Positions 1 through 37,128 of a stretch of DNA of 37,128 bases are shown here, piece by piece (the stretch's first letter is position 1; each line of letters begins with the position of its first letter). Location: IMG/VR virus record IMGVR_UViG_3300030107_004578, positions 1 through 37,128 of that record; one strand, 5' to 3'. The notes beneath the pieces are model-generated. The model saw only the letters and a list, made by a program, of their open reading frames with translations, had not been told where the DNA came from and did not search any database. A program made the position numbers and the translations under genes. The DNA comes from a virus.

Positions 1-187
1 ATACCCTCTAATTGGAGCAAAACAGCCCTTTCCTTGAACGTTGTGAAAAGTTGAATATGTATCCAATTATTTCCGTAGCGTTGAATCTAGGGTTAATATA
101 GCTAAATGAAATACTTTAATGTAGCTTAATTAAATAAATGAATACAGCTAAACTTCCTGGATACAGGTTAAAATGTTGAATCCGGGT
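1..187. repeat. Left copy of imperfect terminal repeat
   Basis: These 187 bases recur without gaps at 36942-37128, with 16 mismatches by my hand alignment (about 91% identity). Mismatches cluster in the first 108 bases, eight of them within 23-40, and the last 79 bases are identical. It shows either circularity of the assembled molecule or a terminal redundancy. True direct terminal repeats are normally identical, so the differences imply population variants or two separate arrays. Confidence 0.85.
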
Positions 188-330
188 TAAGATGTTTAAT
201 ACAAGATTAAAATGTTTAACCCTGGTTCAAATAATTAATACTGCTTAATGTTTATGAAGTAAGATTCACATTGTTTAATAGGTATTCATATCTTTAATGT
301 CAGTTAATATCTTTAATCTGTATTAAGATC
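165..330. repeat. Degenerate tandem array, ~19.4 bp period, TTAA/TTTAAT motifs
   Basis: TTAA (or the variant TTCA) occurs at 168, 187, 207, 226, 245, 265, 285, 304 and 323, with spacings of 19-20 bp. A second half-motif, TTTAAT or close variants such as TTGAAT, occurs at 176, 195, 215, 234, 274, 293 and 312, with a decayed one near 254. A related element thus appears about every 9.7 bp, close to one helical turn. Looser TTGAAT and TTTAAT elements extend back to about 34. The array is non-coding and lies between the terminase genes and, if the ends join, the early arm. It could be iterons of an origin, a terminase-binding packaging site, a partition-like site or phased bent DNA; the sequence does not decide. 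Confidence 0.75.
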
Positions 331-416
331 AGACCCCATACCCCACCATCACTTTACCCACCCCCCATATGTAAAAAAATCGGTCTACCTTTCCGCAGAT
401 ATTCCATGTGTTAGGG
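331..416. other. Non-coding pyrimidine-rich stretch between array and terS operator
   Basis: The top strand is markedly C-rich with several runs of four to six C, then an A7 run, in contrast with the AT-rich array to its left. No open frame with a ribosome site and no convincing sigma70 promoter was seen. It may be part of a packaging site or the terS leader. Confidence 0.4.
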
Positions 417-432
417 GTATACAAAAGTATAC
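417..432. promoter_or_regulatory. Perfect 16-bp palindrome upstream of terS
   Basis: GTATACAAAAGTATAC has two GTATAC arms (417-422 and 427-432) around AAAA and ends five bases before the first possible terS start. Each arm is itself palindromic, so it is both an inverted and a direct repeat. This is the usual form of a dimeric operator. Its ligand is unknown; the phage AbrB-like protein or TerS itself are candidates by inference only. Confidence 0.55.
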
Positions 433-436
433 AGGT

Positions 437-949
437 ATGTTATGGGAAGGTATGCGATCAGTAGGAAGGCCGTCCCGATTTACTCCTGAGCTTGTAGGTA
501 ATATACTTACTTATATACGTGATCACCATTGTAGCCTGTCGGATGCAGCAGCGAGGAGTGGTATCTCCGGGTCTATAGTATCTGTGTGGATGAACTCTGC
601 TGACAGCAAGTACCGTGGGTTTCAGCGGATGATAAGGGCGGCTTTAGCTGAACAGAAGGCTATACTTACTGAGAGTGTTTATAAGCACGCAAGGGAAGAC
701 GGACATCTTGCTTTGAAAGCCTTGCAGAGCCGGTTCCCGGCTGAGTGGGCATCCCACCGTATTCCCCAGAGTCAGAAGGTATTGAACATAGACAACCGTA
801 CTGTTAATGTAAAGGTGTTAAACGAGGGAGTCAGGAGGAAGATACTTGAGTTTATCAGAGCAAGCGAAGGAACTGTTGAACCTGTACAAGTCGGATCCGA
901 TGCTGGTGGATCGGGCGATGTACGCAGTGAAGTTGGGGATAACTCCTGA
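437..949 (+). CDS. terS: Terminase small subunit
   Basis: A protein of about 170 aa that would recognise the packaging site and recruit the large subunit. An N-terminal helix-turn-helix-like segment (roughly residues 8-55, beginning GRPSRFTPEL) is typical of small terminases, followed by an alpha-helical middle and an acidic, glycine-rich tail. An ATG at 452, matching the beginning of the conserved part, is an alternative to ATG 437; neither has an ideally spaced ribosome site. The 3' end overlaps the proposed terL ATPase gene by 104 bases. Its position next to terL and immediately after the AT-rich array fits a packaging-site-binding role. Family assignment rests on the HTH start and context rather than a diagnostic motif. 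Confidence 0.8.
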   Translation: MLWEGMRSVGRPSRFTPELVGNILTYIRDHHCSLSDAAARSGISGSIVSVWMNSADSKYRGFQRMIRAALAEQKAILTESVYKHAREDGHLALKALQSRFPAEWASHRIPQSQKVLNIDNRTVNVKVLNEGVRRKILEFIRASEGTVEPVQVGSDAGGSGDVRSEVGDNS

Positions 950-7265: not shown

Positions 7266-7287
7266 AGCTCCCCCTGTTGGAGTTTAC

Positions 7288-7317
7288 AAAATAGCACAAG
7301 AGCATAGCCGATGTCAA
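7288..7317 (-). promoter_or_regulatory. Sigma70-type promoter for the leftward cassette
   Basis: On the minus strand TTGACA (7312-7317) is followed 18 bases on by TATTTT (7288-7293), about 20 bases ahead of the membrane-protein start at 7265. The -35 is a perfect consensus and the -10 is moderate. Confidence 0.6.
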
Positions 7318-7365
7318 CAATCTCGTCTAAGGATCATTATCTTCACCTATATGTGTTTGGTGTTC

Positions 7366-7394
7366 TTGACAATGTTGGCTATGTAGTAATAATA
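7366..7394 (+). promoter_or_regulatory. Sigma70-type promoter, rightward
   Basis: TTGACA (7366-7371), a 17-base spacer, then ATAATA (7389-7394). Transcription would start near 7401 and meet a strong terminator at about 7520 before reaching the capsid gene, suggesting a short non-coding transcript or an attenuated leader. Confidence 0.6.
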
Positions 7395-7400
7395 ATAGGT

Positions 7401-7520
7401 GGTAATAGTAGTTACCCCACGACATACTCCATATTGATGCCTAATCTACATTAATAACTTTACACTACTATTGTACCTCCTTTTTTCCTCCCGGAGAAGA
7501 TACTCTCCGGGGGGTTTTTT
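7401..7520 (+). ncRNA. Candidate small RNA between promoter and terminator
   Basis: About 120 bases lie between the promoter at 7366-7394 and the terminator at 7487-7520. They contain no frame of useful length: the only nearby ATG closes after two codons. The unit sits in the divergent region upstream of the capsid gene, whose own promoter appears to start after the terminator. A free-standing small RNA or a terminator-controlled leader are both possible. Confidence 0.4.
7487..7520 (+). terminator. Rho-independent terminator upstream of capsid promoter
   Basis: CCTCCCGGAGA (7487-7497) pairs with TCTCCGGGGGG (7504-7514) with one wobble pair and a six-base loop, followed by TTTTTT (7515-7520). 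It is strong and correctly oriented for rightward transcripts. Confidence 0.85.
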
Positions 7521-7524
7521 ACGC

Positions 7525-7551
7525 TTGACACTTTTTTATTTATATTGTAAT
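7525..7551 (+). promoter_or_regulatory. Probable capsid-gene promoter
   Basis: TTGACA (7525-7530) directly follows the terminator U-tract, and TGTAAT (7546-7551, spacer 15) or TAATGA (spacer 17) can serve as -10. It would give a leader of about 135 bases ending in AAGAGG before the capsid ATG at 7693. A dedicated promoter fits the need for abundant capsid protein. Confidence 0.5.
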
Positions 7552-7692
7552 GAACAGATACTGACCTGAAGGGAAAACTGAAACGGCAACCCCAAGGCAA
7601 GAATAGTTACCCTGTATTGGATAGCAACGCTAGCTATAAAGGAACTGTGTTTTAACAGATGGAAGTTATAACATATTTTAAGAGGTTTTTTT

Positions 7693-27794: not shown

Positions 27795-27866
27795 ACGCTA
27801 TATATTAAACGTGTCCAAGTACCACTTAGTACCACAACGTTCAAGGAAGGGGCTATTTTGGAGCAA
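27795..27866. other. Junction between convergent gene arms
   Basis: Only 72 bases separate the stop codons of the two converging transcription units. A weak hairpin with AGGGG/CCCCT arms straddles 27855-27884, but it has no T-run on either strand. I see no convincing terminator, so transcription may read into the opposite arm. Confidence 0.4.
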
Positions 27867-28334
27867 CTATCCCCTAAACATACTGGTATCAGGTGGTTTA
27901 CCAGGGTCATCCACCTTATCCCTGTAGTGATTCACTATTGTTTGGCAAGTCTTACATCGGACAGCGTTACTGGTGATAAACTCTTCAGGAAAACTATTGC
28001 CACAGTCCCTGTCTATCCTGACACGCTCACCTCGTGATATGATATTACCTCTATCGTTTCTCTTAGTAGTAGTCATGGCATCCATGTGTACCCCCGGACA
28101 GCGAGGATAGCACCTGCACGAGGGACGATAGTAAGTAAACTTACCATGCTTGTTATCTACATTTACTTGTTTGAAAGGTTTCTGACAGCGTGGACAATCT
28201 CCACCTGCGAACTCCTTATCAATATGTGTGCATACCTCAGCAGGGAGGTTGGCTCTCATATATGCATCTATTATAGCTTGGTGAGCCTTATCTAACAGCT
28301 CTTGGGTTATACCAAGTTTAGTATCTTGATCCAT
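27867..28334 (-). CDS. Zinc-ribbon-like protein of the replication arm
   Basis: The 155-aa product has an N-terminal helix, then a Cys-rich region with DCPRC (about residue 47), SCRCYPRCPGVH (about 73-84) and, near the C-terminus, CKTC. The spacing suggests two zinc-binding sites. It overlaps the replication initiator gene upstream by 17 bases and is the last gene of the leftward arm. It could be a nucleic-acid-binding partner of the initiator in place of a helicase loader. I do not recognise a named family. Confidence 0.65.
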   Translation of the reverse strand: MDQDTKLGITQELLDKAHQAIIDAYMRANLPAEVCTHIDKEFAGGDCPRCQKPFKQVNVDNKHGKFTYYRPSCRCYPRCPGVHMDAMTTTKRNDRGNIISRGERVRIDRDCGNSFPEEFITSNAVRCKTCQTIVNHYRDKVDDPGKPPDTSMFRG

Positions 28335-28965
28335 CTAGTATCTCCTCTTTTAATTTCTTCAGCCCAACTTCGTAGTAGTTCTCCATCTTAGTACCAAACA
28401 AAGTGAGAGGTCTAAGAAACTTAGACATCGTTGCATCCTTACCCCACTCATGGTGCATAGCATCTATTACTAACTTGAATCCCTTAACTGTGAACTTTTC
28501 CTTTAGTCTGGCATTTATTAATTGTTGGGTAGCTCTGCTCTCATACCTGAAGCTGCTCTCTGTTCTCGCATTCAAATAATTTATGATCTCCTTATATTGT
28601 TCTTTATTCTTGTTAACTAAGTCTTGTTTAATCGGAGTCTCTCCGACGACCTTATCGGAGTTATTCCGTAAGGTAGTCGTAGCTTTGCCGATACAGTACA
28701 GGGTAGAGGTGTTAGACCTACGCTGTCGGCTGATCCATCCTGCTGATTCTAATTCCCTGATAGCTTTAGTTACAGGCTTATCAGTTAGCCCTGCCTTGTC
28801 TTGTATAGTAGCTATGGTAGGGTAGCATTTGTCAGTCTGTGAATTAGAAAAGAAAGCGAGAACCATATATACTGTCTTAGCATTACGGCTTAGACTTTCA
28901 TCACTGATAAGTTCATTCTCTACTACGGTGAACCCACCGTTATCACGAGCAGCTTTAATCCTCAT
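28318..28965 (-). CDS. Replication initiator with winged helix and Phg_2220_C domain
   Basis: The 215-aa protein starts with a winged-helix segment (about residues 20-90, including YPTIATIQDKAGLTDKPVTKAIRELESAGWI). It ends with the pattern of the conserved phage C-terminal domain Phg_2220_C (about 125-200): IINYLNARTESSFRY, INARLKEKFTVKGFKLVID and FLRPLTLFGTKMENYY. Proteins of this kind act as replisome organisers that bind the origin and load replication proteins. As no phage polymerase or helicase is visible, this would be the main link to host replication. Confidence 0.82.
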   Translation of the reverse strand: MRIKAARDNGGFTVVENELISDESLSRNAKTVYMVLAFFSNSQTDKCYPTIATIQDKAGLTDKPVTKAIRELESAGWISRQRRSNTSTLYCIGKATTTLRNNSDKVVGETPIKQDLVNKNKEQYKEIINYLNARTESSFRYESRATQQLINARLKEKFTVKGFKLVIDAMHHEWGKDATMSKFLRPLTLFGTKMENYYEVGLKKLKEEILDGSRY

Positions 28966-29536: not shown

Positions 29537-29717
29537 TATGTTTTAACTCCATTGCAATACCTGCTAATAGCCCCTCAACCTCTTTACCTATAGCTTGCAG
29601 GTGCTCTTGGGTTTTCTCTATGGGTACTTCGGTACACTCATAGAGTTCGTTAATATCTGACATGATAGAAACTTTAAGTTTGTCTATGTTTCTGCTTCTG
29701 CTTTTTCTACTTCCCAT
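29520..29717 (-). CDS. Small hypothetical protein
   Basis: A 65-aa product with a basic N-terminus (GSRKSRSRNIDK) and an amphipathic helical remainder. It overlaps both neighbours in the leftward operon. No family is recognised; the opening is suggestive of nucleic-acid contact only. Confidence 0.6.
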   Translation of the reverse strand: MGSRKSRSRNIDKLKVSIMSDINELYECTEVPIEKTQEHLQAIGKEVEGLLAGIAMELKHNEYKK

Positions 29718-29943
29718 TTTCTTGTAGCTCGTATTCCATAGACCGGTGAGCAGGAACGATAACCAAGTTGTTATCTCTATCTAAAAAGACACACACCTCA
29801 TCCCCTGGCTCCAAATGGTTAGCCATTAGGAACTCTTTGCGTAAGGTTATAACAGGTGAACCTGAACCTTTACGAGTGTAGTCTCTAATTATATAGCTGT
29901 CGTTCTCGCTCTTATGTACTGGTAATTTTTTTGCTAACTTCAT
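29707..29943 (-). CDS. AbrB/SpoVT-like DNA-binding protein
   Basis: The 78-aa protein contains a swapped-hairpin AbrB-like motif (about residues 28-63): SPVITLRKEFLMANHLEPGD, EVCVFLDRDNN and LVIVP. Such dimers bind palindromic operators and often control transition genes or act as antitoxins. No toxin gene is adjacent, so a transcription regulator is more likely. The palindromes at 417-432 and 35970-35992 are plausible targets but unproven. It overlaps its upstream neighbour by four bases. Confidence 0.72.
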   Translation of the reverse strand: MKLAKKLPVHKSENDSYIIRDYTRKGSGSPVITLRKEFLMANHLEPGDEVCVFLDRDNNLVIVPAHRSMEYELQENGK

Positions 29944-30532: not shown

Positions 30533-31232
30533 GCTTATACTTGTAAAAACCTAGTAAGGATAAGAACTTCTTCTCAATTCTTTCAGAGAAAGAGAAAGCC
30601 ATAAGGTCATACCTGTCCCTCTGTGCAGGTGGGTGTCCTGAGTGCCCTATCCTTACAACCATAGCCTGTCTTGGTGGGTCGTAATCACGAGAAAGATTCT
30701 CAGTAAACAAAATGTTATAAGCATGAAGCTGCATCTCCACAGCATCTGGTATTATTTGTTTAGAGGTCTTGAAGTCGACTAAAGTTGGGACGTTATTGAT
30801 CGTACAGTATAGGTCAAACGTACCCCCAAATCCATACTCCCGGGAGACTAAACTATTCTCATGCAATATTGGCTGCGGATTGTACGCTACCTTCCAGTTG
30901 CAGTAGTTAGCGTATGCCTCTCTGCCCTTCACCTGAATATCAGTAACAGGGTCGGGCTGTTCCTGACCATCTTCTGCAATAAGTCGATGTGCCTCAGTAC
31001 CTATCTTACCTGCTTGATCCCGCAAGGCTCGATAGTCTATACCTGCCACCCCACATCCGAATGCCCACTCTATCAGGGCAGGGGCAGATTCTTCTTTCAG
31101 TACGGTAGTCACAGAGGGAAGTATCCTTCCGCTTTCACTGCGGTATACTGTGTGTATCCCTAAGTGTTTAGGGGTATTCTTGTGGAGTTTTAATTTGCGT
31201 TCCTTTATTTCTCTACTAATTTTGTGCTTCAT
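30507..31232 (-). CDS. RecB/Cas4-type PD-(D/E)XK exonuclease
   Basis: The 241-aa protein has the motifs of this family: GTEAHRL (His82), GFGGTFDLYCTINN (Asp140), TLVDFKTSKQ (Asp153-x-Lys155) and AVEMQLHAYN (Gln/Tyr motif). These are the metal-binding core of phage and Cas4-like exonucleases. Beside an ERF annealing protein it would make 3' single strands for annealing, as in lambda Exo/Beta. It overlaps the genes at both ends. Confidence 0.85.
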   Translation of the reverse strand: MKHKISREIKERKLKLHKNTPKHLGIHTVYRSESGRILPSVTTVLKEESAPALIEWAFGCGVAGIDYRALRDQAGKIGTEAHRLIAEDGQEQPDPVTDIQVKGREAYANYCNWKVAYNPQPILHENSLVSREYGFGGTFDLYCTINNVPTLVDFKTSKQIIPDAVEMQLHAYNILFTENLSRDYDPPRQAMVVRIGHSGHPPAQRDRYDLMAFSFSERIEKKFLSLLGFYKYKHEQPNPEV

Positions 31233-36028: not shown

Positions 36029-36820
36029 TTAGTGCATTACAAAAGTTGGCTTCTTTTTAGTTATGCAATACTTGCAGACACTACAAGTAAGTTTAGGTGG
36101 TTGAAGTTTTTTGGCTTTGGCTAGGTATTCTTTAGACTTAGTTGGATCGCTATCTTTTAGACTGTCACCTAGTTTTTTTAAATGGTTACCTTTAGTAATA
36201 GGACATAATAAACCCTTGACCGATTTTGCAAGCTGTTTCATATCATCATAACTACCAAAGTTTAACACTTCTTTATCTGCAACCTTTACAAAACTATTAA
36301 TGATATTAAAATTTTTAGGTAAAATACTTCTATCAATTTGTGGGGCTTTACTGTAGGTAAAAATATTTACGCTTGGGAAGTGATTAGCAATATTTACCCA
36401 CATCATAAAATATTCCCTACTATAAAAATCTCCGCTCGAATGAATTCTTATATTCTTAATTTTCTTTTTTATTATTTCTTTCTTTAATTCAGATTCTAAA
36501 TAATCAATATCATGCAAGGCGATTGCAAAGTTGTAGGTATTAGATTTCTTAGTTGATGGGAATAAGAAAGTTCCTTGATTTGCGTAACATTCTTTAAAAC
36601 ACGAATCACTATCGGGACAGCTCGAAATAGCCAAAAGATCAAAACTAAATATACCACGCCCTAGCTTAGAATTGTAATTCTTTAAGAATCCCTTTTCCTT
36701 TTTATATGCTTTTATTGCTTCTACTTGTGCAGTAGAATATTTAATAATCTGGTACGCTGTTTCAAAATGTTTGTTATTTTTAACACTTTGATCGTTTAGA
36801 TACAAATGTTGTGATTTCAT
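36029..36820 (-). CDS. GP88-like protein with Cys clusters
   Basis: The 263-aa protein resembles the phage GP88 domain family: an SSCPDSDSCFKECYANQG cluster (Cys68, 74, 78), IRIHSSGDFYSREYFMMW (about 124-141), a FTYSKAP segment and a C-terminal TCSVCKYC cluster. Function in that family is unknown; the cysteine groups could bind a metal or iron-sulphur cluster. It is visibly more AT-rich than its neighbours and lysine-rich, hinting at separate origin. AAGGAAG precedes the ATG at good spacing. It is the first gene of the leftward arm, next to the AT-rich array. Confidence 0.72.
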   Translation of the reverse strand: MKSQHLYLNDQSVKNNKHFETAYQIIKYSTAQVEAIKAYKKEKGFLKNYNSKLGRGIFSFDLLAISSCPDSDSCFKECYANQGTFLFPSTKKSNTYNFAIALHDIDYLESELKKEIIKKKIKNIRIHSSGDFYSREYFMMWVNIANHFPSVNIFTYSKAPQIDRSILPKNFNIINSFVKVADKEVLNFGSYDDMKQLAKSVKGLLCPITKGNHLKKLGDSLKDSDPTKSKEYLAKAKKLQPPKLTCSVCKYCITKKKPTFVMH

Positions 36821-36941: not shown

Positions 36942-37128
36942 ATACCCTCTAATTGGAGCAAAATGGGGCGTTGTTTGAATGTTGTGAAAAGTTGAATATG
37001 TATTCAATTATTCTGGTAGCATTGAATCTAGGGTTAATGTAGCTTAATTAAATACTTTAATGTAGCTTAATTAAATAAATGAATACAGCTAAACTTCCTG
37101 GATACAGGTTAAAATGTTGAATCCGGGT
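36942..37128. repeat. Right copy of imperfect terminal repeat
   Basis: Second copy of bases 1-187, starting at the shared ATACCCTCTAATTGGAGC and running to the last base of the window. It stops in the middle of the phased AT-rich array, so the array probably continues beyond the window or joins base 188. No gene is visible in it. Confidence 0.85.

Follow-up and report, generated by a model that had tools for sequence, protein, structure and literature searches.

The locus analysed here raises the question of what is represented by a row of short TTAA-like boxes in the non-coding DNA that extends from the left end of a viral contig to its terS gene (positions 1-436 of the window, by which we mean the whole stretch of 37,128 nucleotides). 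The row is real, unusually regular and without a settled explanation. The features needed to approach it at this end of the window are the following:

166-330, no strand assigned: regular array of 17 TTMA-type boxes, one every 9.75 bp, in units of about 19.5 bp with the consensus TTMANATNTTTAAY
34-165, no strand assigned: left extension of the array, with TTGAAT/TTAAT boxes out of phase with the regular part
334-436, plus strand: terS-proximal C-rich block with a CCTTTCC(R)CAGAT..CCATGTGTTAGGG element, mostly (from about 340) kept in the relatives that hold terS
437-949, plus strand: terS, likely start 452, with an N-terminal HTH half diverged from relatives and a conserved C-terminal part

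The boxes in 166-330 read TTAA or TTCA, with a few TTGA and TGAA, and start at 168, 177, 187, 196, 207, 216, 226, 235, 245, 255, 265, 275, 285, 294, 304, 313 and 323; a straight-line fit to all 17 (168-326) gives a step of 9.75 +/- 0.026 bp. The 19.5-bp unit is a direct repeat composed of TTMANATNTTTAAY and a G/C-containing spacer, and tandem units of 19 and 38 bp are detected in the array, whose GC content is 24.8% and whose TA steps are periodic. Spectral power over 34-330 reaches 5.96 at 9.6-9.7 bp, above the maximum of 4.69 in 1000 dinucleotide shuffles, this short-period signal being the strongest anywhere in the window, and at a lag of 19 the self-identity, 0.475, lies above the 99th percentile of the shuffles (0.40). 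Likewise, the longest chain of TTMA boxes with steps of 9-11 or 19-20 bp contains 15 boxes, compared with at most 6 in 5000 shuffles and at most 10 in 20,000 random placements of an equal number of boxes. A previous, sequence-only reading had described a phased AT-rich array at 34-330 with a period of about 19.4 bp, and had named autocorrelation as a check and AT-matched shuffles as the control that could refute it. The periodic TTAA/TTCA array withstands both, and its period corresponds to the unit of about 19.5 bp; the box step is 9.75 bp, and strict regularity is confined to 166-330, the extension at 34-165, which contains a 23-bp repeat at 93-152, being out of phase. The region is not the only large non-coding one, as had been stated, since 7266-7692, between divergent genes, is another stretch of about 430 bp with no clear gene. 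No Rfam or tRNA match was obtained.

The contig is broken within the array region, so that the array may be of a different length in the genome itself. Two further features belong to the other end of the contig:

36942-37128, plus strand: second, diverged copy (91%) of 1-187
36029-36820, minus strand: GP88 (PF17338) gene, the first leftward gene beside the array, itself lying in DNA of about 30% GC

An end repeat, as previously described, is thus present but imperfect, being exact only for the last 79 bp (37050-37128, equal to 109-187), and the two end copies may be population alleles or a true duplication. GP88 was not found in this phage's relatives and has no close relatives in viral or genome contigs, only distant ones being found, in phages and plasmids. 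A 28-bp element (93%) is also found at 18-45 on the plus strand and, inverted, at 27833-27860 on the minus strand, at divergent and convergent transcription switches, and the convergent copy lies within a stretch conserved in G011, a relative introduced below.

The units of the array are not uniformly conserved. In the nine units the columns TT.A..T are invariant and a further A is kept in eight, and the neighbouring columns are near random. The variance of the majority counts is 4.5 where 1.8 is expected, a value reached in none of 5000 uniform-decay simulations and one whose exact P value is made optimistic by the anchoring of the units; for the non-anchor columns alone it is still 3.8. That some columns are fixed and others drift argues against a tandem repeat that has simply decayed. 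No inverted symmetry was found beyond that of the self-palindromic TTAA, flank complementarity being at chance level, and both a 17-bp dyad unit (7-3-7), whose symmetry is TTAA's own, and an array of dyad operators were rejected for this reason.

With regard to the helix, the phase coherence (R) of the boxes is 0.74 at 9.75 bp, 0.58 at 10.0 and 0.16 at 10.5. The boxes, which had been proposed to lie on one face of the DNA, are therefore incoherent at 10.5 bp per turn and do not share a face of relaxed B-DNA; from their coherence at 9.75 bp we infer that the DNA is over-twisted by a partner or that the partner winds slowly around it. Phased bending, also suggested earlier, finds little in its favour, as the static curvature predicted by a wedge model with standard twist is low (15th percentile of the window; the values are indicative only). 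Phased A-tract curved DNA fails on the same percentile and on the R of 0.16. Only with the helical repeat set to 9.7-10.0 bp in this model is the array predicted, again indicatively, to be among the most coherently bent stretches of the window.

The neighbouring gene offers the most direct clue to a partner. The array was rightly placed beside terS, lying 107-271 bp upstream of the ORF start at 437 and 122-286 bp from the likely start at 452. The gene is identified by profile (phrog_4102), and a low-confidence model of its product best matches the TerS of Shigella phage Sf6 (prob 0.94, E 0.08). Four related contigs comprise the TerS/TerL relatives L001/G001, L002/G002 and L003 and the early-region relative L025/G011. 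The first 63-66 residues of TerS, which carry the HTH, are 48-59% identical to those of the relatives and the remainder 81-91%, and DNA identity to L001 jumps at about 720-780, reaching 97-98% near 780; accordingly, the half of TerS that binds DNA and the sequence upstream of its gene differ together. In lambda-like phages, exchanges of packaging specificity are known in which these two parts diverge together, and the divergent HTH joined to a conserved C-terminal part makes such an exchange likely in this phage.

Upstream of terS, BLAST homology begins at 334-357, which is the right edge of the array. The proximal block (334-436) is kept in relatives, its CCTTTCC-CAGAT..CCATGTGTTAGGG motif being found in viral contigs only in this phage and those relatives, and it is itself a good candidate for a packaging site. 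In G002 and L003 the DNA is complete as far as the next leftward gene and contains no array, so that the spacing, whose conservation in relatives had been taken as a touchstone, is not conserved in either phage with a full upstream region; L001, which starts 440 bp before terS, shows no array, and such repeats as precede terS in L003, L002 and L001 do not reach significance. L002 and L003, neither of which has the window's own type of TerS HTH, have HTH halves that are 95% identical and upstream DNA in common over about 110 bp only, beyond which it is unrelated. As they also share no array, their TerS must rely on the proximal block or on some other feature. In the distant TerL relatives (L009-L015) terS is mostly inside an operon, and they consequently offer no comparable region.

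No comparable array was found in the viral and genome contigs searched. A search for GTTTAAT triplets in viral contigs returned 88 stretches, those inspected being other kinds of perfect repeat with units of 9 or 19-20 bp, and a two-unit pattern returned 26 viral and at least 119 genome stretches, in which the matches with long box chains were rejected as simple repeats of 9 bp or as a coding repeat in infB. Intergenic arrays of 17/19-bp GTTTAATATGATGGGG-type repeats were observed in eight unrelated viral contigs (L052, L054, L059, L069, L081, L088, L092 and L097), and L025 contains early-region repeats of about 60-110 bp (366-466, 745-851, 1013-1117 and 2649-2732), possibly leader or RNA elements.

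A protein assembly on the array, as the sequence-only reading had it, is the best kind of explanation, and TerS, by its position and the co-divergence of its HTH, is the best named candidate. We tentatively propose that the array is a site wrapped and recognized by TerS in the manner of the SPP1/SF6 pac, and that it would form the pac or cosB part of a packaging start site. In such a site, successive HTH domains, from one TerS ring or several oligomers, would read a long series of weak TTAA contacts, each about one helical turn from the next, the flexible TA step would make TTAA a favoured motif for wrapping, and cutting would start near the array, where bound TerS would probably also damp the surrounding early and late promoters. 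In SPP1 and SF6, the HTHs of TerS stand about one B-DNA turn apart on a ring with a circumference of about 300 A and make weak contacts, while pac, with AT runs interspersed with GC pairs, is chosen by bendability and covers the terS promoters and start, TerS-pac repressing that operon (PMC4737164). The likeness is one of layout, with no claim of sequence similarity: like the array, pac (pacL, boxA) adjoins or lies upstream of terS, combines AT runs with GC, offers contacts about one turn apart and overlaps promoters, but it has three sets of direct repeats and no long even row, whereas here 17 boxes follow at 9.75 bp. This step (about 33 A) numerically fits nine subunits on a circumference of 300 A, a fit that is suggestive and not diagnostic since the axis of the DNA runs at a larger radius and this TerS may have another number of subunits. 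TTAA is also a core high-affinity wrap motif in nucleosomes, and nucleosome-positioning DNA resembles the array in having TTAA or TA steps about every 10 bp, albeit with a period of about 10.2 bp (PMC2880596) that exceeds the 9.75 bp found in this phage DNA, for which no histone is known.

Recognition by TerS is favoured by the contrast between fixed and variable columns, which goes far beyond uniform decay. The clear counter-argument comes from L002 and L003, whose HTH halves are 95% identical although they have neither the array nor common DNA far upstream; further points against it are the proximal block as a competing site, a step shorter than the period of nucleosomal DNA, the low static curvature that the wedge model predicts and the example of HK97, whose TerS uses a short 15-bp site and not a long wrapped array (PMC11331095); TerS-DNA binding modes vary among phages (PMC11331095, PMC7672466). 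Small terminases may find their start site by its letters or by DNA mechanics, and by wrapping the DNA or threading it, and a natural array whose 17 boxes keep one fixed step would allow an unusually clean test of these alternatives.

Possible too, and nearly as likely as the TerS site given how weakly the evidence separates them, is an array of operators, on which a phage (or host) DNA-binding protein would coat the region between the leftward early and rightward late operons and switch transcription. The array does sit between divergent operons, TTGAC-type leftward promoter-like sites are kept in the corresponding interval of the relatives, and candidate binders exist in an AbrB/MazE-like protein (PF04014, encoded at 29707-29943) and several early proteins without family. 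Nevertheless, 17 regular boxes are many for this purpose and have no inverted symmetry beyond TTAA, no repressor or integrase family was detected among the proteins scanned, no convincing extra copies stand at other promoters, and promoter matches in 1-460 are at chance level only. Should a regulator bind the array, it would show just as cleanly how a cooperative filament controls a divergent promoter region. Unlikely is a protein filament or wrap for which 9.75 bp is the register, over-twisting the DNA or following a left-handed spiral of about 14 boxes per turn, and possibly combining packaging start with early/late switching; we know of no described counterpart for such a phage nucleoprotein track. 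It is also unlikely that a host protein of the nucleoid or the xenogeneic-silencing kind uses the array as its binding track, or that the array is a centromere-like site: either would suit the AT-rich DNA with its periodic TA steps, but known silencers need no register this strict, and neither the ParA, ParM or TubZ family, expected of the partition-like protein once suggested, nor a centromere-binding protein was detected among the 30 proteins scanned with Pfam, several structural genes being left out of that set.

The array would be an AT-rich tandem repeat under almost no selection, enlarged by slippage and now decaying, with some distortion perhaps introduced by the assembly at the ends of the contig, if its tandem 19/38-bp units, its absence from relatives and the position of both mutually different contig ends within the array region were all that had to be accounted for; its conservation is, however, concentrated in certain columns and its boxes keep a half-unit register that pure decay would not hold, and we consider this origin unlikely. 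Very unlikely is a replication origin in which the units serve as iterons for the HTH_36/Phg_2220_C initiator. The unit length is iteron-like, as in the tandem units of about 20 bp bound by O at the lambda ori, the DNA is AT-rich and intergenic, and the initiator, encoded at 28318-28965, is a true member of phage initiator families (PF13730 and PF09524; phrog_428). Its gene, however, already contains O-like dyads:

28630-28692, minus strand: three dyad iterons of the TCGGA-n5-TCCGA type, the third degenerate, in the inter-domain linker of the initiator gene

These dyads are likely to be the origin iterons, an arrangement inside the initiator gene that is the same as in lambda O. They are of the TCGGA-n5-TCCGA type here and in G011 and read GTGGAG-n3-CTCCAC in G002, at 8253-8313 in L025 and 30545-30604 in G002 (L116/L117), and since G002 shares little of the linker's amino-acid sequence with the other two phages, the repeats look like iterons at the DNA level. 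A second dyad cluster in the early region of G002 (676-734) is shared with L003 (413-471). The initiator, which had been listed among the possible binders of the array, thus has its own site 8 kb away and probably does not bind the array: the TTAA array shares no sequence with the TCGGA/TCCGA dyads, its units are not dyads beyond TTAA, and G002 has an initiator 50% identical, yet no array. GC skew, proposed as a check for an origin, follows the gene strand (negative over the minus-strand genes at 5.7-7.3 kb), gives no strand-independent switch and marks no origin.

In the packaging genes themselves, TerL is split into an ATPase gene (846-1664) and a nuclease gene (1991-2701) with a 104-aa ORF between them (1676-1990), and L002 and L003 align over the same parts.
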